Part shown: one piece after another, positions 15,611 to 54,794 of the stretch | Layout: each line of letters starts with the position of its first letter | Numbering within the stretch: the stretch's first letter is position 1 | Assembly (NCBI RefSeq): GCF_023656415.1 | Contig: NZ_JAMOIL010000023.1 | Span: 1 to 64,000 of the forward strand | Direction: 5' to 3' | Length of the DNA: 64,000 nt | From: Nocardioides bruguierae | GTDB lineage: Bacteria; Actinomycetota; Actinomycetes; Propionibacteriales; Nocardioidaceae | The notes under the pieces: model-generated | Database searches by the model: none | What the model saw: the letters and a program-made list of their open reading frames with translations, nothing else | What the model was told of the DNA's origin: nothing | Made by a program: the position numbers and the translations under genes

Positions 15611-16435
15611 ATGAGCCTCCCCGCCGACGCCGTCACCGGCCCCGCCCCCACCGCGTACTCCGCCCCCGTCCCGCCGTCGGGCTCGACTGCGCTGGCCGTG
15701 GTGACCGGGGCGAGCAGCGGCATCGGCGCGGCCACGGCCCGCGGGCTCGCCTCGGCCGGCTACCGGGTCGTGCTGGCGGCGCGCCGCACCGACCGGATCG
15801 AGGCGCTGGCCGCCGAGGTCGGCGGCGTGGCCGTGGCGTGCGACGTCACGGACGAGGCGCAGGTCGCCGCCCTGGCCGAGCGGGTCGGTGAGCTGGGCGA
15901 GGGTCGGCTCGACGTGCTGGTCAACAACGCCGGCGGCGCCATCGGCAGCGACCCGGTCGCCTCGGCCGGCCTGGACGACTGGCGCGCGATGTACGAGGTG
16001 AACGTGCTGGGCACCCTCGCCGTGACGAAGGCGCTGCTGCCCGCGCTCGTCGCCTCCGGGGCCGGCGCCGTGCTCAACGTCGGCTCCACCGCTGGTCGGA
16101 TCGCCTACGAGGGCGGCGGCGGGTACACCGCGGCCAAGCACGGCACGCAGGTGATGACCGAGACGCTGCGCCTGGAGCTGTTCGACCAGCCGGTCCGCGT
16201 GCTCACGATCGAGCCGGGCATGGTGCGCACCGACGAGTTCGCCCTCAACCGCTTCGACGGGGACGAGGAGAAGGCCGCCAAGGTCTACGCCGGCGTCGCG
16301 GAGCCGCTGGTGGCCGAGGACGTGGCGGACGCGATCGTCTGGATGGTCACCCGCCCGTTCCACGTCAACGTCGACACCCTCACCATCCGCCCCCGCGCCC
16401 AGGCCGCCCAGCACAAGGTCCACCGTCAGGCGTGA
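15611..16435 (+). CDS. Short-chain dehydrogenase/reductase
   Basis: The 274-residue protein is a classical SDR: the NAD(P) motif [19 protein letters not shown] in [10 protein letters not shown], a catalytic Ser in NVGSTAGR, and Tyr/Lys in YTAAKHG. It then has [16 protein letters not shown], typical of the YdfG-like (serine/3-hydroxy acid dehydrogenase) branch. The substrate is unknown. An upstream in-frame ATG at 15602 would add three residues. Its stop codon lies inside the first copy of a 42-base direct repeat (16423-16464), so the last residues (RQA) are repeat-encoded. Confidence 0.87.
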
Positions 16436-16797
16436 GCGCAGCGAGCGCCTGAGCCGGTGGAGGTTGAGGGAGGCCCGCGGCTGAGGGACGAAGCCGCGAC
16501 GGCCGGCTCGAAACCTACGACCGCCGCCCCTGAGCCTGCGAAGGGGCGATGCGGTCGAGGTCGAGCGAGGCCCACGACCGAGGGACGAGGTCGTGACGGC
16601 CGTGTCGAGACCCAGCCGTCAGGCGTGAGCGCAGCGAGCGCCTGAGCCGGTGGAGGTCGAGCGAGGCCCTGCCTCGGTGATCGAGGTGCGAGGCCGGCCA
16701 CGGCCGAGCCACGAGATCCCCGCACCCGAGCCGGGGCGCGCGCCTTCGTCGGGTGCGGGCGTCTCGTGGCTCCTCGCCGGAGCCGGTCGCACCTCGA
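16423..16797. repeat. Dispersed-repeat cluster: 42-bp direct repeat plus inverted pair
   Basis: A 42-base sequence beginning ccgtcaggcgtgagcgcagc occurs perfectly at 16423-16464 and 16616-16657. Downstream, two copies of a second element lie inverted: tcgaggtgcga (16681-16691) with tcgcacctcga (16787-16797), gagccacgaga (16706-16716) with tctcgtggctc (16762-16772), and cccgcaccc (16719-16727) with gggtgcggg (16751-16759). Related sequence recurs in and beside the carotenoid locus (48.2, 49.2-49.6, 54.9, 55.0 kb). This accounts for most of the gap between the SDR and racemase genes. Confidence 0.85.
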
Positions 16798-16872
16798 CGA
16801 CCCTGGCGGTATGACCTGCGCCCCACGAATGCCCCTGGCGGAGTGACGCACGACACGGCAGGCTCGGTGCTC

Positions 16873-39779: not shown

Positions 39780-39905
39780 GCACCGGCCCCGCTGGTCGAG
39801 GAGGGCCGGCGCCGGGTCGAGGACGCGCGGAGCCGCCGCCGCAGGTCGAGGACGCGCGGAGCCGCCGCTGGTCGAGGAAGGACGAAGTCCTGTCGCGAGA
39901 CCGAG
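39780..39905. repeat. Dispersed repeat copies beside the DUF222 gene
   Basis: ggtcgagga-type units recur here, including two copies of aggtcgaggacgcgcggagc-like sequence and one full hairpin element at 39866-39902 whose core is aggac-gaa-gtcct. The same element occurs twice at the start of the crtB reading frame (48185, 48248) and once in its linker (49216). The surrounding 39656-39937 holds no gene I can support. Confidence 0.8.
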
Positions 39906-44750: not shown

Positions 44751-45404
44751 ATGCCCGAGCCGCGCGACGCCGTCGTGCTCCTGGACGAGGCGGGGCAGCC
44801 GATCGGCACCACCGACCGCACCACGGTCCACACGACGGCCACCCCGCTGCACCTGGCGTTCTCCCTCTACGTGGTCGACGCCGACGACCGGCTGCTGCTC
44901 ACCCGCCGCGCGCTGGGCAAGACGGCCTGGCCGGGAGTCTGGACCAACTCCTGCTGCGGCCACCCGCGCCCCGACGAGTCCTCCCAGGACGCGGCGCGCC
45001 GCCGCGTCCACGAGGAGCTCGGCCTCGACCTCGGCGCGCAGCCGCTCACCACCGTCCTGCCCGACTTCCGCTACCGCGCCGTCGACGTGAGCGGCGTGGT
45101 GGAGAACGAGGTCTGCCCCGTGCACGTGGTGCGGCTGCCCGCCGGCGCCACCCTCTCCCCCGACCCCGCCGAGGTCGCCGAGCTGGCCTGGGTGCCGTGG
45201 GCCACCGCCCAGCACCTCGTCACGCACGCGCGCCCGCTCGTGAGCCCGTGGATGGCGCTCCAGGTGCCGGGCCTGGTCGCCGCGCTCGAGGCGCTCGGCG
45301 CCACCACGCTGGGCGCCCTCACCCGCGCGGGTGACGCCCCCGCGGGTACCGGCGACGAACGATGCGTGAAGAGCGCAGGTACGAGCCTCCCGGAGTCCGC
45401 ATGA
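44751..45404 (+). CDS. idi: Isopentenyl-diphosphate delta-isomerase, type I
   Basis: The 217-residue Nudix-fold enzyme isomerises IPP and DMAPP. It has HLAFSLYVVDADDRLLLTRRALGKTAWPGVWTNSCCGHPRPDES, with the catalytic Cys in NSCCGHP, and RRRVHEELGLD; the catalytic Glu occurs in VENEVCPVHVV. gaggtg precedes ATG 44751. Its stop overlaps the start of crtE (ATGA), so it supplies DMAPP for the carotenoid pathway in the same operon. The C-terminus is about 30 residues longer than usual and low in conservation. Confidence 0.95.
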   Translation: MPEPRDAVVLLDEAGQPIGTTDRTTVHTTATPLHLAFSLYVVDADDRLLLTRRALGKTAWPGVWTNSCCGHPRPDESSQDAARRRVHEELGLDLGAQPLTTVLPDFRYRAVDVSGVVENEVCPVHVVRLPAGATLSPDPAEVAELAWVPWATAQHLVTHARPLVSPWMALQVPGLVAALEALGATTLGALTRAGDAPAGTGDERCVKSAGTSLPESA

Positions 45405-46600
45405 GCGCCCAGCCCCTCCCCGAGCCACAGAGCCCCGAGCCGCAGTCCGGCACACCAGCCCGGTCCAATCCAGGGGCACCCAGCCGAGCACCCTCCCTCC
45501 GCCCCGTGCGCCCGGCCGCCGCGGTGCTCGCCGACGTGGAGGACCTCCTCCGCCTGCGGCTCGAGCGCCTCCAGGCGGAGTGGCACCACGGCGAGGCCGA
45601 CGGCACCACCGACCCCGTGCTCGGCGACGCCGACCTGCCCGGCCTCCTGGAGTCGCTGGTGCTGGGCGGCGGCAAGCGGTTCCGGCCGCTGCTGTGCCAC
45701 TGGGGCTGGGTGGCCGCCGGCGGGCCGCAGCGCGGCGAGGACCCCAGCGTCCCCGTCCGCCTCGGCGCCGCCCTGGAGCTCCTGCACGCCTTCGGCCTCG
45801 CGCAGGACGACGTGATGGACGGCTCCGAGACCCGCCGCGGCGCCCCCGCCGTGCACGTCACGGCCCGCACGCACCACACGGATGCCGGCGGCCGGGACGA
45901 CGCCCAGCGCTACGGCGAGTCCGTGGCCACCCTCGTCGGCGACCTCGCCCACGCGGAGGCCGACGCGATCGTCGCCGAGCTGCCGCAGGCGGTGCGGCAC
46001 CTGTGGTGGCGCACCAGCCTGGAGCTGGTCCGCGGCCAGGCCCACGACCTCTCCGAGGCCGCCGCCGGTGGCGGGCCCGACGCGGAGGCCCGCGCCTGGG
46101 AGGTCGCCCGTGCCAAGTCCGGCGGGTACACGGTGCAGCGCCCCCTCGAGCTGGGCGCCACCGCGGCCGGGGCCGACGCCGGCGTCCTGCGTGCCCTGGG
46201 CACCTACGGCCGCCACCTCGGCGAGGCATTCGCGCTGCGCGACGACCTGCTCGGGGTGTGGGGCGACCCGGCCGTCACCGGCAAGCCCGCCCACGACGAC
46301 CTGCGCTCCGGCAAGGCCACGGTGCTGCTCGCCCGCGCGGAGGCACACGCCCGGGCCCAGCAGGACGAGGCGGCGCAGCGCGTGCTCACGCGGGTGCGCG
46401 CCCAGCAGCACGAGCCCGGCGACGTCGAGGCCGCCGCGGCCGCGATGGAGCGGCTCGGGGTGCGGGCGGGCGCCGAGGAGCAGGTCCGCGCCAGCCACGC
46501 CGCTGCCCTGGCGGCGGTGGAGGGCTGCGAGCACCTCGACGCCGCCGGCGTCCAGGGGCTGCGGTGGGCCGCCGACGCGGTGGCCTGGCGGCAGAAGTGA
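45401..46600 (+). CDS. crtE: Geranylgeranyl diphosphate synthase (polyprenyl synthetase)
   Basis: The 399-residue trans-prenyltransferase has GGGKRFRP, the first Asp-rich motif DDVMD in LAQDDVMDGSETRRG, the conserved Lys/Thr region KSGGYTVQRPLELG and the second Asp-rich motif DDLLGVWGD. It makes the C20 diphosphate used by phytoene synthase. The ATG at 45401 overlaps the idi stop and cggag precedes it. About 45 Pro/Ser/Gln-rich residues precede the first conserved helix, an extension without known function. Confidence 0.93.
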   Translation: MSAQPLPEPQSPEPQSGTPARSNPGAPSRAPSLRPVRPAAAVLADVEDLLRLRLERLQAEWHHGEADGTTDPVLGDADLPGLLESLVLGGGKRFRPLLCHWGWVAAGGPQRGEDPSVPVRLGAALELLHAFGLAQDDVMDGSETRRGAPAVHVTARTHHTDAGGRDDAQRYGESVATLVGDLAHAEADAIVAELPQAVRHLWWRTSLELVRGQAHDLSEAAAGGGPDAEARAWEVARAKSGGYTVQRPLELGATAAGADAGVLRALGTYGRHLGEAFALRDDLLGVWGDPAVTGKPAHDDLRSGKATVLLARAEAHARAQQDEAAQRVLTRVRAQQHEPGDVEAAAAAMERLGVRAGAEEQVRASHAAALAAVEGCEHLDAAGVQGLRWAADAVAWRQK

Positions 46601-46640: not shown

Positions 46641-48173
46641 GTGAGCCGCGTCGTCGTCATCGGAGCCGGGCTCGCCGGTCTCGCCACCGCCTGCCACCTC
46701 TCGGGCTCGGGCCACGACGTGACCCTGATCGAGGCCGAGGACGCCCCCGGCGGCCGCGCCGGCCAGATCGTGCGCGACGGGTTCCGCTTCGACACCGGAC
46801 CCACCGTGCTCACCATGCGCAGCCTCCTCGAGGACGTCGTGGGCGCCGCCGGCGGCGACCTCGACGCGCTGCTGCCGATGCAGCGGCTCGACCCCGCCTA
46901 CCGCGCCACCTACTCCGACGGCTCGGAGATCCTCGTGCGGCACGGTCACGAGGCGATGCGCGCCGAGATCGCGGAGAAGTCCGGCGCCGCCGACGCCGCC
47001 GCCTTCGACCGGTTCGTGCCGTGGCTGAAGCGGCTCTACGAGGTCGAGATGCCGCACTTCATCGACGCCAACTTCGACACCCCGCTCGACCTCGTCCGCA
47101 ACCCCCGCGCCGCCGCGAGCCTGGTGACGATGGGCGGGTTCGGCCGCCTCGGGCCGGCCGTGAAGCGCCGCTTCATCGACGACCGGCTGCGTCGCCTCTT
47201 CACCTTCCAGGCTATGTACGCCGGCCTCCCGCCGTCCTCCGCGCTCGCCATCTACGCGGTGATCACGTACATGGACTGCATCGAGGGGGTCTACTTCCCG
47301 GACGGCGGCATGGCGGCCGTCCCCCACGCGCTGGCGAAGGCGGCCACCGACAACGGCGTCGACCTGCGCCTGGGCCAGAAGGTCACCCGCGTGCTGCGCC
47401 GCCCCGACGGCCCGGTGGCCGGCGTGGAGATCGACGCCGGGCCGATCAAGGGCAGCGAGAAGCTCATGGCCGACGCGGTCGTCTGCACCCTCGACCTCCC
47501 GGTCGCCTACCGGCACCTGCTGCCCGACCTCGCGCCGCCCCGCGTCGTCCGCACGGGCGACTACTCCCCCTCGGCCGTGGTGTGGCACGTCGGCGCCCGC
47601 GGCGACCTGCCCGCCGGGGCGCGGCACCACAACATCCACTTCGCCGACGCCTGGGACTCCTCCTTCGACGCCCTCATCAAGCAGGGCCGGATGATGCCGG
47701 ACCCCTCGCGCCTGGTGACGATCCCGAGCCTCACCGACCCCACGGCCGCCCCCGACGGCGCGCACACGCTCTACGTGCTGGAGCCGGCGCCGAACCTGGA
47801 CGGGGTGGTCGACTGGCGCACCCAGCGCGGCCGCACCCGCGAGGAGCTGCTGGCCTTCCTCGAGCGGGAGGGCTACCCGACCGACATCGTCACCGAGGAG
47901 CTCGTCGACCCGCTCGACTGGCAGGCGCAGGGCATGGAGCGCGGCACCCCGTTCGCGCTGGCCCACACCTTCGCCCAGACCGGCCCCTTCCGCCCCTCCA
48001 ACGTGGAGAAGCGACTGCCCGGCTTCTTCTTCGCCGGCTCCGGCACCGTGCCCGGTGTCGGCGTCCCCATGGTCCTCGTCTCCGGCCGCCTGGCCGCGGA
48101 GCGGGTCACCTCCTACCTCCCGACGGTCCCCCGCCGCCAACCCCGCATCACCACCACGGAAGGCGCGGCCTGA
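46641..48173 (+). CDS. crtI: Phytoene desaturase
   Basis: The 510-residue FAD enzyme begins SRVVVIGAGLAGLATACHLSGSGHDVTLIEAEDAPGGRAG (dinucleotide-binding motif) and has DTGPTVLTM and, near the end, GFFFAGSGTVPGVGVPMVLVSGRLAAERV, the bacterial CrtI signature. It introduces the double bonds that turn phytoene into lycopene. GTG 46641 has gaggag upstream. Its TGA overlaps the ATG of the next gene (TGATG), so CrtI and CrtB are translationally coupled. Confidence 0.95.
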   Translation: MSRVVVIGAGLAGLATACHLSGSGHDVTLIEAEDAPGGRAGQIVRDGFRFDTGPTVLTMRSLLEDVVGAAGGDLDALLPMQRLDPAYRATYSDGSEILVRHGHEAMRAEIAEKSGAADAAAFDRFVPWLKRLYEVEMPHFIDANFDTPLDLVRNPRAAASLVTMGGFGRLGPAVKRRFIDDRLRRLFTFQAMYAGLPPSSALAIYAVITYMDCIEGVYFPDGGMAAVPHALAKAATDNGVDLRLGQKVTRVLRRPDGPVAGVEIDAGPIKGSEKLMADAVVCTLDLPVAYRHLLPDLAPPRVVRTGDYSPSAVVWHVGARGDLPAGARHHNIHFADAWDSSFDALIKQGRMMPDPSRLVTIPSLTDPTAAPDGAHTLYVLEPAPNLDGVVDWRTQRGRTREELLAFLEREGYPTDIVTEELVDPLDWQAQGMERGTPFALAHTFAQTGPFRPSNVEKRLPGFFFAGSGTVPGVGVPMVLVSGRLAAERVTSYLPTVPRRQPRITTTEGAA

Positions 48174-50560
48174 TGAGCAACAGCCGCTGGTCGAGGAACG
48201 ACGAAGTCGTGTCGCGAGACCAAGGCCCCACCGGTGGTCGAGGAGACCGCTGGTCGAGGAAGGACGAAGTCCTGTCGCGAGACCAAGGCCCCACCGCTGG
48301 TCGAGACCCCCGCACCCGCGAGCTCCGCCTCACCGACGGCTACCGCCGCTGCGCCGAGCTCACGAGGGAGTACGGCACGACGTACTTCTGGGGCGCGGCG
48401 ATCCTCCCGCGACCCCAGCGCCGCCACGTGCACGCGGTCTACGCCCTGTGCCGGCTGGCGGACGACATCGTGGACGTGGCGGAGGACTCCTCCCCCGCCG
48501 CACAGGCCACCACGCCCGAGCAGGCCGCCGAGATCGAGGCACGCCTGGCCGACTTCCGCGACCGCTTCGCCGCGTCGGTGGCCACCGGCGAGTCCGACGA
48601 CCCGGTGCTCCTCGCAGTAGGAGACAGCGTCCGCGCCACCGGCATCGACCTGGAGTGCTTCGACCGCTTCTTCCGCGCGATGGCGCAGGACCTCACCACC
48701 ACCCGGTACCGCACCTGGGACGACCTCATGGGCTACATGGAGGGCTCGGCCGCGGTGATCGGCGAGATGATGCTCCCGGTACTGCGGCCCACCTCCGAGC
48801 GCGCGCTGGCGCCGGCCCGGGCGCTGGGGCACGCGTTCCAGCTGACGAACTTCCTGCGTGACGTGGACGAGGACCTCGACCGCGGCCGCGTCTACCTGCC
48901 CCAGGAGGACATCGACCGCTTCGGCGCGGACCCGTTCAACCGCACCGCCGACCCCGCCTGGCGCGCACTGATGCGTTTCGAGATCGCCCGCAACCGCGAG
49001 CTGTACGCGCAGGCCGAGCCGGGCCTGGCCTTCCTCCCCGACGCCTCCCGCCGCTGCGTCGGCACCGCCAAGACCCTCTACGCCGGAATCCTCGAGCGGA
49101 TCGAGATGGCCGACTACGACGTCTTCGCCCGCCGCGCCCGCGTCCCCACCTGGCGCAAGGCCGCCGTGGCCGGCGCCGCCCTCACCGGCGTCGCGATGGC
49201 AGCCACCATGACGTCCGCTGGTCGAGGAGGGACGAAGTCCCGTCGCGAGACCAAGGCCGAAGACGGTGGTCGAGGTGCGAGGAGCGCCAACGACCCCACC
49301 GGTGGTCGAGGTGCGAGGAGCGCCAGCGACCTCACCGGTGGTCGAGGTGCGAGGAGCGCCAGCGACGAGCCACGAGACCCCCGCACCCAGGCACCCACCG
49401 ACGCCAAGACGCCGCTGGTCGAGGAGACCGTCCACGGCCGTCGGGAGACCAAGGCCGAAGACGGTGGTCGAGGTGCGAGGAGCGCCAACGACCCCACCGG
49501 TGGTCGAGGTGCGAGGAGCGCCAGCGACGAGCCACGAGACCCCCGCACGAAGGCAGCATCGAGGGACAACGCCCTCCCCCCACTCCTAGCGAGAAAGATC
49601 CCGCTCGCGCTGAAGCCCATGCCGGCACGCCGCGACCTCCAGCCCAGCTGGCGCGAGGCCAAGCCGAGCCGCATCAAGGCAGCACTCGACGCAGCGCTCG
49701 CGAAGGACCCGGGCGGCTGGTACGTCGCAGGCGCCTCGACGGACCTCAAACAGAAGAGCATCACGCGCACGATCGGCGGCACGGAGGTCGTGCTCTGGCG
49801 CACGCAGGACGGCGTGGTCGCCGGCCCCGGCGCCTGCCCCCACCTCGGGGCACTGCTCACCGACTGCGAGGTCATGGGCGAGAGGCTCTACTGCAAGTGG
49901 CACGGACTCAGCCTCCAGCCCGAGGGCCAACCCGGCTGGACACCCTTCAAGGCCCTGGACGACGGCGTGCTCCTGTGGGTCCAGATCCCGACCGCCGGCG
50001 AGCAGACCGCCGACGCCCCCACCATCACCCCGCGCCCAGCACTCACCGGCTCCATCAGCGCAGTGATCGAGGTCCCGGGCACCTGCGAACCCCGCGACAT
50101 CATCGCCAACCGACTGGACCCCTGGCACGGCAGCTGGTTCCACCCCTACGCGTTCAGCCACCTCGAGGTCGACGACGACGCCAGCGACGACGACACCCTC
50201 ACCGTCGACGTCACCTTCCGGCTGTCCCGCCGCTGGGGAGTCCCGGTCCGCGCGGAGTTCACCTGCCCAGACGCCCGCACGATCATCATGACGATCATCG
50301 AGGGCGAGGGCGCCGGCAGCGTCGTGGAGACCCACGCGACCCCGCTCGGACCCGGCCCCGACGGCCACCCCCGCACCATGATGGTCGAGGCCACCATCGC
50401 CCACTCCGATCGCCAGGGCTTCCGCCTCGCCACCGGGCTCAGCCGTCTCGTCCAGCCCGGCATGCGCCACACAGCCCGCAGGCTGTGGGTGGACGACATA
50501 GTCTACGCCGAACGGTCGTACCTGTTGCGCTCGCGCGCCGACCAGGCCGGGCGCGCCTGA
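48173..50560 (+). CDS. crtB: Phytoene synthase fused to a Rieske (DUF5914-type) protein
   Basis: The frame is open for 795 residues. Residues about 53-345 are phytoene synthase: YGTTYFWGAAILP, first Asp-rich motif from Asp97 (LADDIVD), second from Asp230 (RDVDEDLDRGRVYLP). Residues about 464-795 are a Rieske protein with Cys555-x-His557 and Cys574-x2-His577 for a [2Fe-2S] cluster, like the DUF5914 gene usually found just downstream of crtB (crtV position in Streptomyces). Residues 5-47 and the linker 348-463 are translated copies of a dispersed DNA repeat (GRGARSASD units). An internal ATG at 49619 could start the Rieske part separately. Whether the long fusion is made is unknown. Confidence 0.85.
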   Translation: MSNSRWSRNDEVVSRDQGPTGGRGDRWSRKDEVLSRDQGPTAGRDPRTRELRLTDGYRRCAELTREYGTTYFWGAAILPRPQRRHVHAVYALCRLADDIVDVAEDSSPAAQATTPEQAAEIEARLADFRDRFAASVATGESDDPVLLAVGDSVRATGIDLECFDRFFRAMAQDLTTTRYRTWDDLMGYMEGSAAVIGEMMLPVLRPTSERALAPARALGHAFQLTNFLRDVDEDLDRGRVYLPQEDIDRFGADPFNRTADPAWRALMRFEIARNRELYAQAEPGLAFLPDASRRCVGTAKTLYAGILERIEMADYDVFARRARVPTWRKAAVAGAALTGVAMAATMTSAGRGGTKSRRETKAEDGGRGARSANDPTGGRGARSASDLTGGRGARSASDEPRDPRTQAPTDAKTPLVEETVHGRRETKAEDGGRGARSANDPTGGRGARSASDEPRDPRTKAASRDNALPPLLARKIPLALKPMPARRDLQPSWREAKPSRIKAALDAALAKDPGGWYVAGASTDLKQKSITRTIGGTEVVLWRTQDGVVAGPGACPHLGALLTDCEVMGERLYCKWHGLSLQPEGQPGWTPFKALDDGVLLWVQIPTAGEQTADAPTITPRPALTGSISAVIEVPGTCEPRDIIANRLDPWHGSWFHPYAFSHLEVDDDASDDDTLTVDVTFRLSRRWGVPVRAEFTCPDARTIIMTIIEGEGAGSVVETHATPLGPGPDGHPRTMMVEATIAHSDRQGFRLATGLSRLVQPGMRHTARRLWVDDIVYAERSYLLRSRADQAGRA
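48185..48295 (+). repeat. Two hairpin repeats at the 5' end of crtB
   Basis: Two 48-base copies (48185-48232, 48248-48295) start cgctggtcgaggaa and end in gcgagaccaaggccccacc. They differ only at two positions of the central stem, acgac-gaa-gtcgt versus aggac-gaa-gtcct, a paired change that keeps the hairpin. They are translated as WSRNDEVVSRDQGPT and WSRKDEVLSRDQGPT. Confidence 0.9.
49216..49556 (+). repeat. Repeat block forming the CrtB-Rieske linker
   Basis: It contains a hairpin element at 49216-49252 with core gggac-gaa-gtccc, then 36-base tandem units (ggtggtcgaggtgcgaggag and 16 more bases) at 49265, 49301 and 49337, and again at 49463 and 49499. An 84-base direct repeat is perfect between 49247-49330 and 49445-49528, an offset of 198 bases (66 codons). 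All unit lengths are multiples of three, so the frame stays open. Confidence 0.9.
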
Positions 50561-50567
50561 TCCAAAC

Positions 50568-51800
50568 TCATCTGACGCTAAAGCGTACAGGCTTGCTCCA
50601 GTCAGACTGTGGGACGCCCCTTCCACCGCTGGCCCGGACCTGGAAACGATAAATTCCCCGCCCGAGTCCGCGCATGACCATGCGCGTTCCGATGATGGAA
50701 ATCTTCTTTCGCGCAACTCTTGGCTGAAGGCTGTACGTGTAAGCCTTGATGTCATTTCCATGCGCGTCAGGACGATTCCATCTCAGAATTGCCCGGCGAC
50801 CCCGAACCCTTGCCGTAACGTTACGAATTCGGTCAATTTGTCGCGAGATCTGAACTTTCTCACGAACATACTGTCCGGCCCCAGCCGAGGAATCGGCAGC
50901 CAGCATGAACACATATGTGCCAGCATCTAGGTTGGCCACCCGAAGTCGCTGACGCTCACTCCCAACCAACCAGGTCTGACCAGTAGTCTTTTCCCGCACG
51001 CGGTATCCCTCAAGGGCTGCCGTCGCGTCGCCGCTGTCCTGCACCGACCAGCGAAGCGTAGTCAGGCGGTCATCGACTGAATCGCTGACCGAAAGCCTCA
51101 GGTTGGGGTTGGGCGAAGGAGCATCCATCCCCTCGAGAGTCAACGTGTATTGCCCCACTGCCGTTGACTCTGCAGAAGCCAAGGGTGCGGAGTACCGAGA
51201 CCCGTCCGGCAAGCGCGCAGACACACTGCCCGACGGCATCAGGTCCTCCTCCGGGGAAAGAACCGTGGTTTCGCCAGACCTTGTCCAACCCTCCCAACCC
51301 CAGTATGCGTAGGCATAGGCCAGACCCGGTGCGGCAGTTGGGTTTTGTTCAAGGTAGTCCCCGCCAGGTCCCGTCGCAGCAAGGTAGACGTTGTCGATGG
51401 GAACGGCATTCCTGTCAACAATCTTAAAGGTCTTGCGATAGAGAGTGGGGATTGTCAGTGGGCCCAGATCGAGGTCAGATTCGAGCATGAAACTGCTTGT
51501 AATGAGGTTCAAGATCCCTGAATCGGCACCGTCAGAAAACCTTCGATTGATCGTCAGCGAGTATTCGCCCGAAGCAGCGAGAATCTCGAACGCTCCATCA
51601 CCGCCCACATTCACGGTCGTCCCGCCTAGTCCGACCGTTCCGTCAACGGGCAACCCCGAATCCCCATCGATGAGTACGCCCGTGACCGCGTGTACGTCAG
51701 CCGCTTGTGCGGGAACCAGGCTGAGCAGTGATAAGAGGGTCAGAACTGACAGCAATGTTGACCATGCGCGCGACGAGCTCAAGCGTGAGGTGGTTCGCAT
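50568..51800 (-). CDS. Secreted protein with fibronectin-III-like domain, within the carotenoid locus
   Basis: The 410-residue protein has a signal peptide (AWSTLLSVLTLLSLLSLVPAQA), an N-terminal carboxypeptidase-regulatory-like beta domain (VTGVLIDGDSGLPVDGTVGLGGTTVNV), and a C-terminal Fn3-like part (RRAILRWNRPDAHGNDIKAYTYSL...GIYRFQVRASGGRG). It is AT-richer than its neighbours and has no pathway link to carotenoids, so it looks inserted between the two convergent crt operons. TACCTT plus six bases before ATG 51800 suggests a leaderless start. Its stop is 7 bases from the crtB-Rieske stop. Confidence 0.7.
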   Translation of the reverse strand: MRTTSRLSSSRAWSTLLSVLTLLSLLSLVPAQAADVHAVTGVLIDGDSGLPVDGTVGLGGTTVNVGGDGAFEILAASGEYSLTINRRFSDGADSGILNLITSSFMLESDLDLGPLTIPTLYRKTFKIVDRNAVPIDNVYLAATGPGGDYLEQNPTAAPGLAYAYAYWGWEGWTRSGETTVLSPEEDLMPSGSVSARLPDGSRYSAPLASAESTAVGQYTLTLEGMDAPSPNPNLRLSVSDSVDDRLTTLRWSVQDSGDATAALEGYRVREKTTGQTWLVGSERQRLRVANLDAGTYVFMLAADSSAGAGQYVREKVQISRQIDRIRNVTARVRGRRAILRWNRPDAHGNDIKAYTYSLQPRVARKKISIIGTRMVMRGLGRGIYRFQVRASGGRGVPQSDWSKPVRFSVR

Positions 51801-51878: not shown

Positions 51879-53393
51879 CTACGCACCGACACCTCCCATC
51901 GGCGGCGTCCAAGTGGACGGGCTCGCCACCCCAAACGCCGCGAGGAAGTGGGCTCCCGCCTGTGTCCCCGTCGTTGCTGCCCGTTCCATGAGGGCAACCG
52001 GCAACTCACACCGCACCCCATCGCCGGCCAGCACCACCCGCTCATCCGGCGTCACGACACCGGGCCGCGAAGCCCACTCGTCCAGCCCGACGAGCGGGCA
52101 GTCCTCGCGCACGAGCCACTCTTCCCCCCGCACCTCACCGGCGCCAAGGGACGGATGAATCCGCAGCAGTTCCTCCCACAGCACCTTCTGCAACTGCTCA
52201 CGATCAGCGGCATCCGAGGCAGGCACCGCGTACGCATGCATCTCCACGACGCACCCGCCAGTGGACGAGGCCCACGCAGCCGCCCCTGACTCCAGCTGCT
52301 CCAGGAACGACACGTTGTCGAGCGGCCCGAACCCGGAAGTCCCCAGGAACGCCGCAGCATCAGCCGGAGCCGGGCACGACAACCACCGCCGCCACACGAC
52401 GAACGGCGGCGCAACCTCCAAGCCGAGCAGCCGCGAGCGCCACGCGTCATCCCCCAGCCACGGCGACGCCGACACGATGCGCTGCAGTGGCGCACGGTCG
52501 GTGGCCAGCACGACACCGTCGACGGCGAGCGAGTTCACCAACAGTCCGCCCGAGTCGCTCTCCGTCAGCGAGGTCACCGGCGAGGACAGCCGGATGTCGA
52601 CCCCGAGGGAGGTCAGGTACTCGCCGAGCGGCTTCCAGAGGGCGGTGTCGAAGTCGTCCTCGGCCACGTCGAAAAGGAGCCCCTCGGCGGAGCCGAGAAA
52701 GTAGGTGTGGAACATCGCGACCAGCTCGCCGGCCGAGAAGTCGTCGGGGTCAGCGAAGAACGACCGCGCGAAAACCTCGAGCGCCAAGTGCCGGGCGGAC
52801 TCCGGGAAGTTCAGGGAGTCCAGGAACGACGAGGCCGACATCCCGTCAAGGTCGGAGAAGGTCCGCGGGAACGACACCCGCAGCAGCCCCATCGCCTCGC
52901 GCACATTCACCTTGGCCAGATCCCGGAGCGTGAACGACGGCGACTGCGCCACGAACCCGAGGATGCTCCACGGCGGGGTCCGAGGCACGTGCGTAAACGA
53001 GTCCCGCGCCCCCGACGCCGCCAGCAGCGGATAGTCCTCCACCGGCTTCAGCCGCGACAGGTCCGGGTCCGTCCGCCGCAGGAGCGCCCGCAGGTTGTAG
53101 TACTGCCGGAAGAACGCGTGGAACCCGCGACTCATCGCCGTCTCCTGCCCGTCCACCGTCACAGGCCACGAGGCCACACGCCCGCCGAGCCTGTCGGTCG
53201 CCTCGAGCAGCGTGACCCGCACGCCCTTCTCCGCCAGGACGCACGCAGCCGACAGCCCCGCGATCCCACCGCCCACCACGGCCACGTGGTGCCGGCCCTC
53301 GTCCGACGGCGCCCCAGGATGCCCCGGGATAAACTCGGCCCGCGAGTCCCGCCCCGGAAGCCACGACGACGAAGACGAGAAGGGCGACCTCAC
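51879..53393 (-). CDS. crtU: CrtU-type carotene desaturase/methyltransferase (aromatic ring formation)
   Basis: The 504-residue FAD protein has HHVAVVGGGIAGLSAACVLAEKGVRVTLLEATDRLGGRV near the start and the CrtU-specific SRGFHAFFRQYYNLRALLRRTDPDL; the C-terminus keeps RVVLAGDGVRCELPVALMERAATTG. CrtU turns beta-ionone rings into aromatic phi-rings, giving isorenieratene. GTG 53393 overlaps the stop of the methyltransferase gene (GTGA). It ends the minus-strand operon crtYc-crtYd-methyltransferase-crtU. Confidence 0.88.
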   Translation of the reverse strand: MRSPFSSSSSWLPGRDSRAEFIPGHPGAPSDEGRHHVAVVGGGIAGLSAACVLAEKGVRVTLLEATDRLGGRVASWPVTVDGQETAMSRGFHAFFRQYYNLRALLRRTDPDLSRLKPVEDYPLLAASGARDSFTHVPRTPPWSILGFVAQSPSFTLRDLAKVNVREAMGLLRVSFPRTFSDLDGMSASSFLDSLNFPESARHLALEVFARSFFADPDDFSAGELVAMFHTYFLGSAEGLLFDVAEDDFDTALWKPLGEYLTSLGVDIRLSSPVTSLTESDSGGLLVNSLAVDGVVLATDRAPLQRIVSASPWLGDDAWRSRLLGLEVAPPFVVWRRWLSCPAPADAAAFLGTSGFGPLDNVSFLEQLESGAAAWASSTGGCVVEMHAYAVPASDAADREQLQKVLWEELLRIHPSLGAGEVRGEEWLVREDCPLVGLDEWASRPGVVTPDERVVLAGDGVRCELPVALMERAATTGTQAGAHFLAAFGVASPSTWTPPMGGVGA

Positions 53394-54139
53394 GCGGACG
53401 CCTTCCGCGCCCGCCACGCATGCACCTGCCCGGCCTGCCAGCCGCTGACGGTCCGGGTCTCGACCTCGGTCAGGCCGCCGCGCCACAGCCGGTCGGCGAA
53501 CCCGCGGACCCCGTCGAACGACAGCACGCTGCGCCACAGGTAGCGGTAGATCGGCGACTGCGGCGCCGTCGCCATCCCCAGCGGGACGATCACGCCCCAG
53601 CACGTCGCGTGCCAGGCCCAACGGGCAGTCAGGCTGTCGCCCACGGAGTAGTCGTGCACGACGAGCACGCCACCCGGCGCGAGCACCTCGCGGATCTCCC
53701 CGATCAGGCGGTCGCGCGCGGCCACGTTGCGGAACAGGTAGGCGGTCAGCACCCCGTCGAAGGACCCGAGGTCCGAGGAGGTCAGGTGCTCGGCGTCCGC
53801 CTGCGCGAAGGTGACGCCACTCAGGGCGGGCTTGGACGAGGCGGAGCGGAGCATCCCGGCAGAACCGTCCACGCCGACGATCTCGGCGTCGACGCCCGCT
53901 TCGCCGAGGGCGGACACCAGGGCCCGCGTCGACGCGCCGGACCCGCACCCGAGGTCGAGCACCCTTGGTCGGCGACCGGGCGTGGTCGGCAGCGCCTCGA
54001 CCACGGCGCGAGCCGACGCTCGCAACTGAGAGTGGTACCCGGGGCTGAGCCCGACCATGAGGTCGTAGGTCTCCGCGACGTCGTCGAAGGCATCGGGCAC
54101 GGTGCCGGCGTTGATCGTCGGCCGAGTGTCGGTGCTCAT
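53390..54139 (-). CDS. SAM-dependent methyltransferase of the carotenoid operon (CrtT position)
   Basis: The 249-residue class I methyltransferase shows motif I RVLDLGCGSGASTRAL, AEIVGVDGSAGML, and post-motif DGVLTAYLFRNVAARDRLIGEIREVLAPGGVLVVHDY, resembling UbiE-like enzymes. In Streptomyces the gene between crtY and crtU (crtT) is a methyltransferase of this kind. Its precise substrate is not settled. Start ATG 54139 overlaps the crtYd stop and its stop overlaps the crtU start. Confidence 0.8.
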   Translation of the reverse strand: MSTDTRPTINAGTVPDAFDDVAETYDLMVGLSPGYHSQLRASARAVVEALPTTPGRRPRVLDLGCGSGASTRALVSALGEAGVDAEIVGVDGSAGMLRSASSKPALSGVTFAQADAEHLTSSDLGSFDGVLTAYLFRNVAARDRLIGEIREVLAPGGVLVVHDYSVGDSLTARWAWHATCWGVIVPLGMATAPQSPIYRYLWRSVLSFDGVRGFADRLWRGGLTEVETRTVSGWQAGQVHAWRARKASA

Positions 54140-54462
54140 GCGTGCTCCTTGTTTCTGGTCTGGTGGCGGCCGAAACGAACCCACAGCATCAGCGCGAGGC
54201 TCACCATGGCGAACCCGAAGACGAAGTCCTCGACGGGGATGTCCCACGGCGCCCGCCACCCGGTCATGTGGTCGGAGTTGTAGAGCACGATCGGGTCGGA
54301 GAGCTTCGTGAGCCATCCGTCCACGGGCACCTGGAAAGCCATCACGATCGCCATCGCCAGCCAGTACTGGAGGGTGCGGAAGATCCCGGTCCGCAGCACC
54401 AGCAGCTCCAGGCCGACGACGATCGCCAGCGACGCCAGAGCCGTCGCGGTGTAGACCCCCAT
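54136..54462 (-). CDS. crtYd: Lycopene cyclase domain protein, second subunit (CrtYd-type)
   Basis: The 108-residue membrane protein has three helices and the lycopene-cyclase-domain segment LQYWLAMAIVMAFQVPVDGWLTK, then PWDIPVEDFVFGFAMVSLALMLW. It pairs with the preceding gene to make the heterodimeric cyclase of high-GC Gram-positives, which closes beta rings on lycopene. Start ATG overlaps the crtYc stop (TGATG). Confidence 0.88.
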   Translation of the reverse strand: MGVYTATALASLAIVVGLELLVLRTGIFRTLQYWLAMAIVMAFQVPVDGWLTKLSDPIVLYNSDHMTGWRAPWDIPVEDFVFGFAMVSLALMLWVRFGRHQTRNKEHA

Positions 54463-54794
54463 CAGCGGTCGGCCCGCCGCGGCAGCATCCGCAGCACGTT
54501 GCCGACGGCCTCATAGGTCAGCAGCCCGCAGATGGGCACGACGAGGAAGAAGACGAGCTCTTCCAGCGGCATCTCGAAGGGCAGCAGGACGCCGGTGGTG
54601 TGCTGCTCCGAGTACCCCCACGAGTCGAGTGCGATCATGACGACATCCCACGCCGAGTACGCGATGACCAGCGGGAGCAGCGTCATGACCAGCAGCTTCG
54701 GCCGCCGCCAGACGCGAGCACCCAGCACGACCTCGAGCGGCAGCGTGATCGCCAGACACAGCCCCATGAGGATCAGGTACTCGAAGTGCTGCAC
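54462..54794 (-). CDS. crtYc: Lycopene cyclase domain protein, first subunit (CrtYc-type)
   Basis: The 110-residue membrane protein has the lycopene-cyclase-domain repeats HFEYLILMGLCLAITLPLEVVLGARVW and VIAYSAWDVVMIALDSWGYSEQHTTG, plus FEMPLEELVFFLVVPICGLLTYEAV with the conserved E-E-L motif. GTG 54794 is preferred to the longer 54836 frame because VQHFEYLILMG is the usual opening. It is first in the minus-strand crt operon. Confidence 0.88.
   Translation of the reverse strand: MQHFEYLILMGLCLAITLPLEVVLGARVWRRPKLLVMTLLPLVIAYSAWDVVMIALDSWGYSEQHTTGVLLPFEMPLEELVFFLVVPICGLLTYEAVGNVLRMLPRRADR

Follow-up and report, generated by a model that had tools for sequence, protein, structure and literature searches.

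A predicted phytoene synthase-Rieske oxygenase fusion of Nocardioidaceae and the REP-like palindromic elements translated within it

The repetitive extragenic palindromic (REP) elements, tagged by GTAG or CGTC, are described as dispersed palindromes of 20-40 bp that are mostly intergenic, with some being translated in unrelated open reading frames (ORFs), and that lie mainly in convergent or co-directional gaps, often as opposite-strand dimers (PMC3733652). The same paper reports translated copies in several Proteobacteria including Rickettsia, with clusters encoding 43-82 amino acids (aa) in Thauera and R. conorii, and cautions that N-terminal copies may precede the true start (PMC3733652). 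The Rickettsia palindromic elements, of about 150 bp, are said in a review to occur in frame in many unrelated protein genes, and a similar mode of protein evolution is considered there as one that may have occurred in other prokaryotes (review PMC10969869). On the enzyme side, two further papers describe a fungal fusion of phytoene synthase with a CrtYcd-type lycopene cyclase (PMC2889829) and a requirement for both CruE and CruH in cyanobacterial synechoxanthin synthesis (PMC9958174). Here we analyse a stretch of 64,000 nucleotides (nt) from Nocardioides bruguierae (contig NZ_JAMOIL010000023.1, positions 1 to 64,000; hereafter the window), in which a crtB gene, predicted to code for a phytoene synthase, is joined to a gene for a Rieske/DUF5914 protein, and short palindromic elements are translated as part of the product. 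We consider it highly probable that the gene codes for a genuine fusion of phytoene synthase with a Rieske oxygenase, which those Nocardioidaceae that bear the pair inherited from their ancestor and which forms one bifunctional chain, into which REP-like elements were inserted later.

ORF analysis of the window recovered a single open frame of 795 codons covering both enzyme domains, and matches to the Pfam families SQS_PSY, Rieske and DUF5914 bear out the first-pass annotation of this DNA, according to which one 795-residue frame spans both enzymes:

48173-50560, + strand: fused crtB-Rieske/DUF5914 gene of 795 aa, whose ATG overlaps the crtI stop (TGATG); the same fusion is found in seven other species.
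48365-49156, + strand: phytoene/squalene synthase domain, residues 65-328 (Pfam SQS_PSY 1e-69; Foldseek to CrtM-like structures, best E 5e-14).
49718-49945, + strand: Rieske [2Fe-2S] domain, residues 516-591, CPH...CKWH (Pfam 5e-12; motif residues invariant in protein alignments).
49994-50536, + strand: DUF5914 domain, residues 608-788, D649-x2-H652-x4-H657 (Pfam 7e-86; Foldseek to Rieske oxygenases).

Sequence patterns distinguish nine recognisable elements of two related types in the N-terminus and linker of the fused gene:

48189-48221, + strand: type 1 palindromic element, N-terminus, translated.
48252-48284, + strand: type 1 palindromic element, N-terminus, translated, with an exact copy outside called genes at 39870-39902.
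49220-49252, + strand: type 1 element, linker.
49268-49300, + strand: truncated type 2 element, in a 36-nt tandem period.
49304-49336, + strand: truncated type 2 element, in the same 36-nt period.
49340-49379, + strand: complete type 2 element, 40 nt.
49417-49450, + strand: degenerate type 1 element.
49466-49498, + strand: truncated type 2 element.
49502-49541, + strand: complete type 2 element, 40 nt.

The N-terminal 47 or so residues and most of the linker are thus translated dispersed repeats, with the repeat-built linker amounting to about 115 aa, and the presence of the same elements elsewhere in the genome agrees with the earlier claim that these segments consist of repeats also found outside genes. 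Superimposed on the elements are a 63-nt unit in two copies (48184-48305), a 36-nt tandem (49264-49366) and a 91-nt linker stretch duplicated 198 nt downstream with 99% identity. That all units are multiples of three, as had been stated, holds for the tandem periods of 36 and 63 nt and for the 33-nt element but not for the commonest element length of 40 nt (57 of the 99 elements examined in this genome). The three intact type 1 copies in the fused gene keep their inner stem by paired changes (AGGAC/GTCCT, ACGAC/GTCGT and GGGAC/GTCCC), and the N-terminal insert of about 40 residues is without counterpart in the other eight aligned fused proteins. The GC content at third codon positions is 0.71 in the linker and 0.76 in the N-terminus, while the two enzyme parts have 0.96 and 0.93, and on account of these low values the repeat block looks DNA-derived rather than codon-shaped. 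Upstream of residue 86, in-frame ATG, GTG or TTG codons occur at residues 1 and 13 alone; therefore, if the start codon of CrtB is a usual one, translation must include one N-terminal element or both, and, as no usual start codon lies between residues 13 and 86, it is unlikely here that the N-terminal copies precede the true start.

We then compared the fusion across relatives by means of a profile scan for Rieske/DUF5914 in one genome per species, from which the best 80 loci were kept as a list that is not exhaustive. Among these, the pair is fused in eight (L026-L031, L046 and L044, the last with a stop just before the end of the match) and adjacent but separate in 28, while crtB lies elsewhere in the locus in seven and is missing from the locus in 37. 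In the six nearest loci, L026-L031, crtB and Rieske form one frame, and within the genus the gene is present in five of 98 sampled genomes, namely that of the window, three matching L026, L028 and L029, and L183, in which it is likewise fused. Besides the window's species, the pair was found in seven Nocardioidaceae (L026-L031 and L183), and it is fused in all of them; here L027, labelled only Actinomycetota, is counted with the family as it adjoins L026 and L028 on very short tree branches. The first-pass statement that crtB and the Rieske gene are normally separate applies mainly outside Nocardioidaceae.

The linker is 483 nt long in the window, and 168, 186 and 156 nt in L026, L027 and L028, with one, two and one element pieces respectively; it is element-free in L183 (99 nt), L029 (159 nt), L030 (132 nt, with a lone GGTCGAG) and L031 (138 nt). 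In a phylogeny built on the two domains of 30 loci, which takes in 19 of the 28 adjacent but separate loci plus L009, the eight fused Nocardioidaceae sequences form one clade (100/99) that is sister to the separate genes of Humibacillus (96/94); the window groups with L026-L028 (90/90), elements are confined to this subclade, and the placement of L029 is weak (66/28). Since four of the seven relatives have element-free linkers and a single clade holds all the fused sequences of the family, the two genes were most likely joined before the repeats arrived in the linker, an order that the tree supports, and the parsimonious course would run from fusion, via acquisition of elements in one subclade, to their expansion in the lineage of the window. 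The first-pass annotation had instead posited that repeat invasion removed the crtB stop, a scenario favored by the 28 adjacent but separate loci, by the repeats that fill the junction here and by the fit of such a mechanism to a second gene pair of this genome, SWIM/DUF5691 (see below). However, the four element-free fused species all lie within the fusion clade, such that elements would have to have been lost in two lineages of the tree (one if L029 moves), and the comparison with sister species that had been suggested as a check returned a fused pair in every Nocardioidaceae relative found, with elements or without them. We consider a repeat-made fusion at crtB very improbable, and rejected it on the strength of the element-free fused linkers and the tree. 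Separately, L044:3592-5436 (Enemella evansiae) and L046:3511-5460 (an unclassified actinobacterial metagenome-assembled genome) carry crtB-Rieske fusions with element-free linkers; because the label "fused" needs three changes in total on the tree, these two may be independent fusions.

The elements themselves fall into type 1, mostly 33-35 nt and of the form GGTCGAGGA-stem-GTCGCGAGACC, and type 2, of 40 nt and the form GGTCGAGGTGCGA...GAGCC(A/T)CGAGACC. A fold-energy filter was tried as an element definition and given up in favor of sequence patterns, as it returned mostly chance matches. The pattern GGTCGAGGN{10,38}GAGACC has 128 matches in the genome against three for the reversed control, which we judge too lenient for this count; among the 100 matches listed of the 128, some 34 show to the eye no palindrome in their middle and resemble ordinary sequence, leaving about two thirds as elements. 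An alignment that takes in 43 type 2 copies out of 57, among them 38 distinct ones, with the structure drawn from the same sequences, yields a hairpin of 12 pairs with 88.8% standard pairs and 53 cells altered on both sides. Its covariation score over the 38 distinct copies is 0.363; shuffles give 0.109 +/- 0.015, and no slid position exceeds 0.035. The outer pair alternates between G-C and C-G and the second between G-C and A-T, and two inner positions are non-standard in 25 of the 38 rows, mostly as tandem G.A mismatches by eye.

The 99 elements come from 44 fetched stretches plus the window, and, because these stretches were picked by eye from 100 of the 128 pattern matches plus a few other places, the following fractions are not genome-wide: 80 elements lie between genes and 19 inside. 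Genes were called with a home-made codon model that missed 51879-53291 and placed the crtB start at 48428; the 19 accordingly combine 17 in called genes, one of them weak (L139:630-660, two mismatches, left out of the gene list), with the two N-terminal crtB elements assigned by hand. Neighboring copies on opposite strands, 45-93 nt apart, were seen in 17 cases. Among the 46 element-bearing gaps, 21 are convergent and 21 co-directional, compared to 36 and 116 of the 184 gene pairs in the same stretches, an excess of convergent gaps (Fisher 1.5e-6). A looser pattern, GGTCGAGN{12,30}CGAGACC, matches 23-222 times per genome in 25 genomes of the genus (control 0-11) and 3-43 times in 14 genomes from the order's other genera (control 1-13); it is richest in the genus, but some genomes from outside have as many matches as the genus members with the fewest. 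The Y1 transposase family PF01797 has 0 matches in this draft genome and matches in five of 14 control genomes, on which basis mobility via a Y1 transposase of this genome's own was discarded as a candidate for the draft at hand; plasmids queried by BLAST with the element gave no match. As further observations on arrangement, intergenic arrays of largely alternating orientation, with neighbors 72-93 nt apart, occur at L144:1891-3066 and L139:1975-2454, and at 16422-16799 of the window a type 2 pair on opposite strands comes after a 97-nt tandem repeat. Arrays of REP type go by the name of bacterial interspersed mosaic elements (BIMEs), which the alternating arrays at L144 and L139 presumably resemble.

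Elements are also encountered in eight genes of this genome besides crtB-Rieske:

L115: SWIM-DUF5691, element at the junction.
L121: FAD-dependent oxidoreductase, element at the C-terminus.
L122: adenosine 5'-phosphosulfate (APS) kinase-low-molecular-weight (LMW) phosphatase, element in the linker.
L125: protein without Pfam match.
L130: glycosyltransferase, element on the opposite strand.
L140: ABC transporter.
L145: ribonucleotide reductase, which we take to be of the B12 type, element in a linker.
L147: acyltransferase, element on the opposite strand.

In all eight of the nine element-bearing genes that have a Pfam match, the elements lie outside the domain envelopes (p = 4e-4, assuming one insert per gene and uniform placement over these eight genes, with L125 left out for want of a Pfam match). 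The translated elements are read in several frames and on both strands, and this use of frames points to spread at the DNA level rather than to selection for one peptide. The consensus elements are free of stops in all six frames, a property that is not rare in DNA so GC-rich. Beside these, we observed at L145:2033-2066 an element translated in the variable linker ahead of the C-terminal cysteine motif of ribonucleotide reductase, with a different element-like stretch at this linker in G020 (in a comparison of the nine loci, out of 29, that match the search motif), and at L147:2237-2420 an acyltransferase C-terminus made up of a tandem of GGVAGAPRTSTT, the reverse-strand translation of a truncated type 2 unit.

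Two of these genes provide a comparison for the origin of such fusions. The SWIM zinc finger and DUF5691 form one frame of 980 aa at L115:545-3487 (in this genome C7:12547-15486, - strand). The pair was matched in 13 of 98 genus genomes, and in all 12 others the genes are separate and in different frames where they meet, the overlap of the SWIM stop with the nearest DUF5691 start being 4 nt in 11 genomes and 1 nt in the other. In G012 SWIM is apparently frameshifted, such that part of it shares an open frame with DUF5691, but the gene ends as it does in the other genomes, with a stop that overlaps the following start. The junction of the fused gene, found in the window's genome only, holds a type 1 element together with a type 2-like one recognised by eye. 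This supports an element-made fusion as fitting SWIM/DUF5691 of this genome; insertion after fusion would fit too, with no intermediate seen. The fusion of APS kinase (cysC) with LMW phosphatase occupies L122:1478-3337 (here C12:74780-76633, - strand). All 19 genus genomes compared have the APS kinase, and 13 have the phosphatase in the fetched locus, fused in 10 and separate in three; counting the window's genome, which first brought the case to light, element sequence is visible by eye in seven of the 10 fused linkers and in none of the remaining three. The linker in G008 has truncated type 2 copies 36 nt apart and then a complete one, as in the window. On the corresponding tree, in which the row for G004 sits on a long branch, "fused" needs three changes over the 19 genomes and one among the 13 adjacent pairs. 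We tentatively suggest, as a conjecture that falls somewhat short of being probable, that in this genus palindromic elements which insert where the stop of one coupled gene overlaps the start of the next might serve as stop-free linkers that turn two genes into one, with SWIM/DUF5691 as the direct case and cysC-LMW phosphatase and crtB-Rieske as a later stage at which linkers are still gaining elements.

Turning to the enzymes, the residues D97, D98 and D101 together with D230 and D234 of the two Asp-rich motifs, as well as CPH...C.WH and D-x2-H-x4-H of the Rieske/DUF5914 half, are invariant in nine of nine aligned fused proteins, and we assume for the Asp-rich, Rieske cluster and D-x2-H-x4-H motifs the functional meaning customarily attached to them. 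D649-x2-H652-x4-H657 in DUF5914 is read as a putative catalytic iron site. An AlphaFold2 model built from nine sequences has a mean predicted local distance difference test (pLDDT) score of 70.7 and a predicted template-modelling (TM) score (pTM) of 0.58; pLDDT is below 50 at residues 1-43 and 322-477, and also at 104-110, 493-495 and 653-659, and above 70 in most of both enzyme parts. Foldseek searches with the back half recovered the Rieske oxygenases 7qwt, dicamba monooxygenase and KshA, with E values between 1e-8 and 4e-8 and a TM by target of 0.46-0.54; over all Rieske oxygenase rows shown, TM by target ranges from 0.37 to 0.60 and the best E is 1e-8. We infer from these matches that the Rieske/DUF5914 half might be a carotenoid oxygenase, the carotenoid substrate being suggested by the gene neighborhood.

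The fused gene starts within the crtI stop as the last gene of an idi-crtE-crtI-crtB run, and further genes lie on the opposite strand:

44751-45404, + strand: isopentenyl-diphosphate isomerase (NF002995 2e-71, above cut-off).
45362-46600, + strand: polyprenyl diphosphate synthase in the crtE position (Pfam 1e-42; start unsure, 45362 or 45506).
46641-48173, + strand: crtI-type phytoene desaturase (TIGR02734 4e-134, above cut-off).
51879-53291, - strand: FAD amine-oxidase family protein, CrtU-like by position only (Pfam PF01593 8e-31; start unsure).
53390-54139, - strand: UbiE-type methyltransferase (Pfam PF01209 2.5e-23).
54136-54794, - strand: two small lycopene-cyclase subunit genes (Pfam PF18916 in both).

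As the FAD amine-oxidase, UbiE-type and lycopene-cyclase genes, the last of which we presume to be CrtYc/CrtYd by name, adjoin on the minus strand, the locus is predicted to be a carotenoid cluster. Between the fusion gene and the FAD gene sits a 410-aa frame (window 50568-51800, - strand) with a GC content of 58% against 70% for the window and no family above cut-off.

Several observations weigh against parts of the favored interpretation of an inherited fusion that later received elements. The genome is a draft of 75 contigs, so that an assembly error could affect the number of repeat copies seen in the 483-nt linker. A repeat block arising wholly as a short-read assembly artefact, for which the contig number and the near-identical 91-nt duplication might speak, is in our view extremely improbable, given that one or two of these elements also stand in this linker in the separate assemblies of L026-L028, that 36-nt truncated elements are similarly arrayed in a different gene of G008 and that the frame is kept here. 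Among the elements, two of five covariation measures are weak, namely further pair types (8 versus 7.7 in shuffles) and pairs changed on both sides (a value that 14 of 500 shuffles attain), and single elements fold no better than shuffles under a DNA energy model. With regard to function, no NCBIfam synthase model scores above cut-off for the CrtB half, and the top-scoring one is HpnD rather than CrtB (best CrtB model 183.9 bits against a cut-off of 550; HpnD 183.9 against 278.6); because these models stay under cut-off, the name phytoene synthase is given on the basis of the Pfam domain and the neighboring genes. The loop with H657 of the proposed iron site (residues 653-659) is among the segments of pLDDT below 50, and sequence matches to solved Rieske oxygenases are confined to the Rieske part. 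Finally, internal initiation is possible at Met 483, which stands ahead of the Rieske domain in eight of eight Nocardioidaceae fusions, and three of the eight have linker GTG codons behind 4-nt Shine-Dalgarno matches. These features would suit a gene that is open throughout yet gives two proteins, with CrtB ending by cleavage or drop-off and the Rieske protein made from an internal start or by proteolysis, as would the predicted disorder of the 156-residue stretch 322-477. Such an outcome, compatible with the same evolutionary history, appears unlikely: no Shine-Dalgarno match longer than 5 nt, and hence no strong one, precedes the Met 483 equivalent in any of the eight, and the common frame is kept in all eight species despite the varying linker, which separate translation would not need. 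A bifunctional protein is the likely product.

In light of the above, we propose that crtB and the Rieske gene were fused in the ancestor of the Nocardioidaceae carrying the pair, giving one polypeptide whose N-terminal domain would make phytoene and whose C-terminal non-heme iron oxygenase would oxidize a carotenoid, with a flexible linker in between. After the fusion, REP-like hairpin-forming elements of 33-40 nt probably inserted in frame into the linker and just past the start codon, and then multiplied by tandem and segmental duplication, stretching a tolerant linker from the 99-186 nt seen elsewhere to 483 nt; each inserted element would add a short disordered peptide that the enzyme tolerates. 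This would be a case of selfish-looking palindromes turned into protein linkers in an actinobacterium, whose relatives display the states before and after. Furthermore, the fusion makes DUF5914 testable as a carotenoid oxygenase, and SWIM/DUF5691 raises the testable question of whether mobile palindromes create gene fusions at overlapping junctions. In the literature searched, partly by title and with most subscription journals outside the search, we found no phytoene synthase-Rieske fusion, no paper with "DUF5914" and, by title, no such elements in Nocardioides or Actinobacteria, although one of the papers, on the N. dokdonensis genome (PMC5526307), does contain the words "palindromic repeats".

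The elements resemble REPs in being short, dispersed, covarying palindromes of many copies that lie mostly between genes, prefer convergent and co-directional gaps, form opposite-strand dimers and are in part translated. They differ from REPs in lacking the GTAG tag, in beginning with CGTC in just seven of the 38 distinct type 2 rows, where it is half of a paired change (the remaining rows begin GGTC, GATC or GACC), in the lack of Y1 transposase matches in this draft genome, in their frequent tandem G.A mismatches and in building a linker of about 115 aa. The words "Actinobacteria" and "Nocardioides" are absent from the main text of the REP paper (PMC3733652). While the elements behave like REPs and BIMEs, we do not assign them there because the tag and the transposase, both of which were looked for, do not agree. 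With the Rickettsia palindromic elements, compared by description rather than sequence, they share in-frame presence in unrelated proteins, and they differ in being 33-40 nt long, actinobacterial and read in several frames on both strands. The fungal fusion is alike in joining phytoene synthase to a later carotenoid enzyme, and differs in that the partner is a lycopene cyclase and the organisms are others. For the Rieske/DUF5914 half, an analogy may be proposed with CruE and CruH, the latter of which we take to be a Rieske-type protein, in that a Rieske-type oxidase would act after a CrtU-type desaturase; homology to DUF5914 is not implied. Translated palindromes of the REP and Rickettsia types were already known, and what is new is the actinobacterial set at domain junctions.

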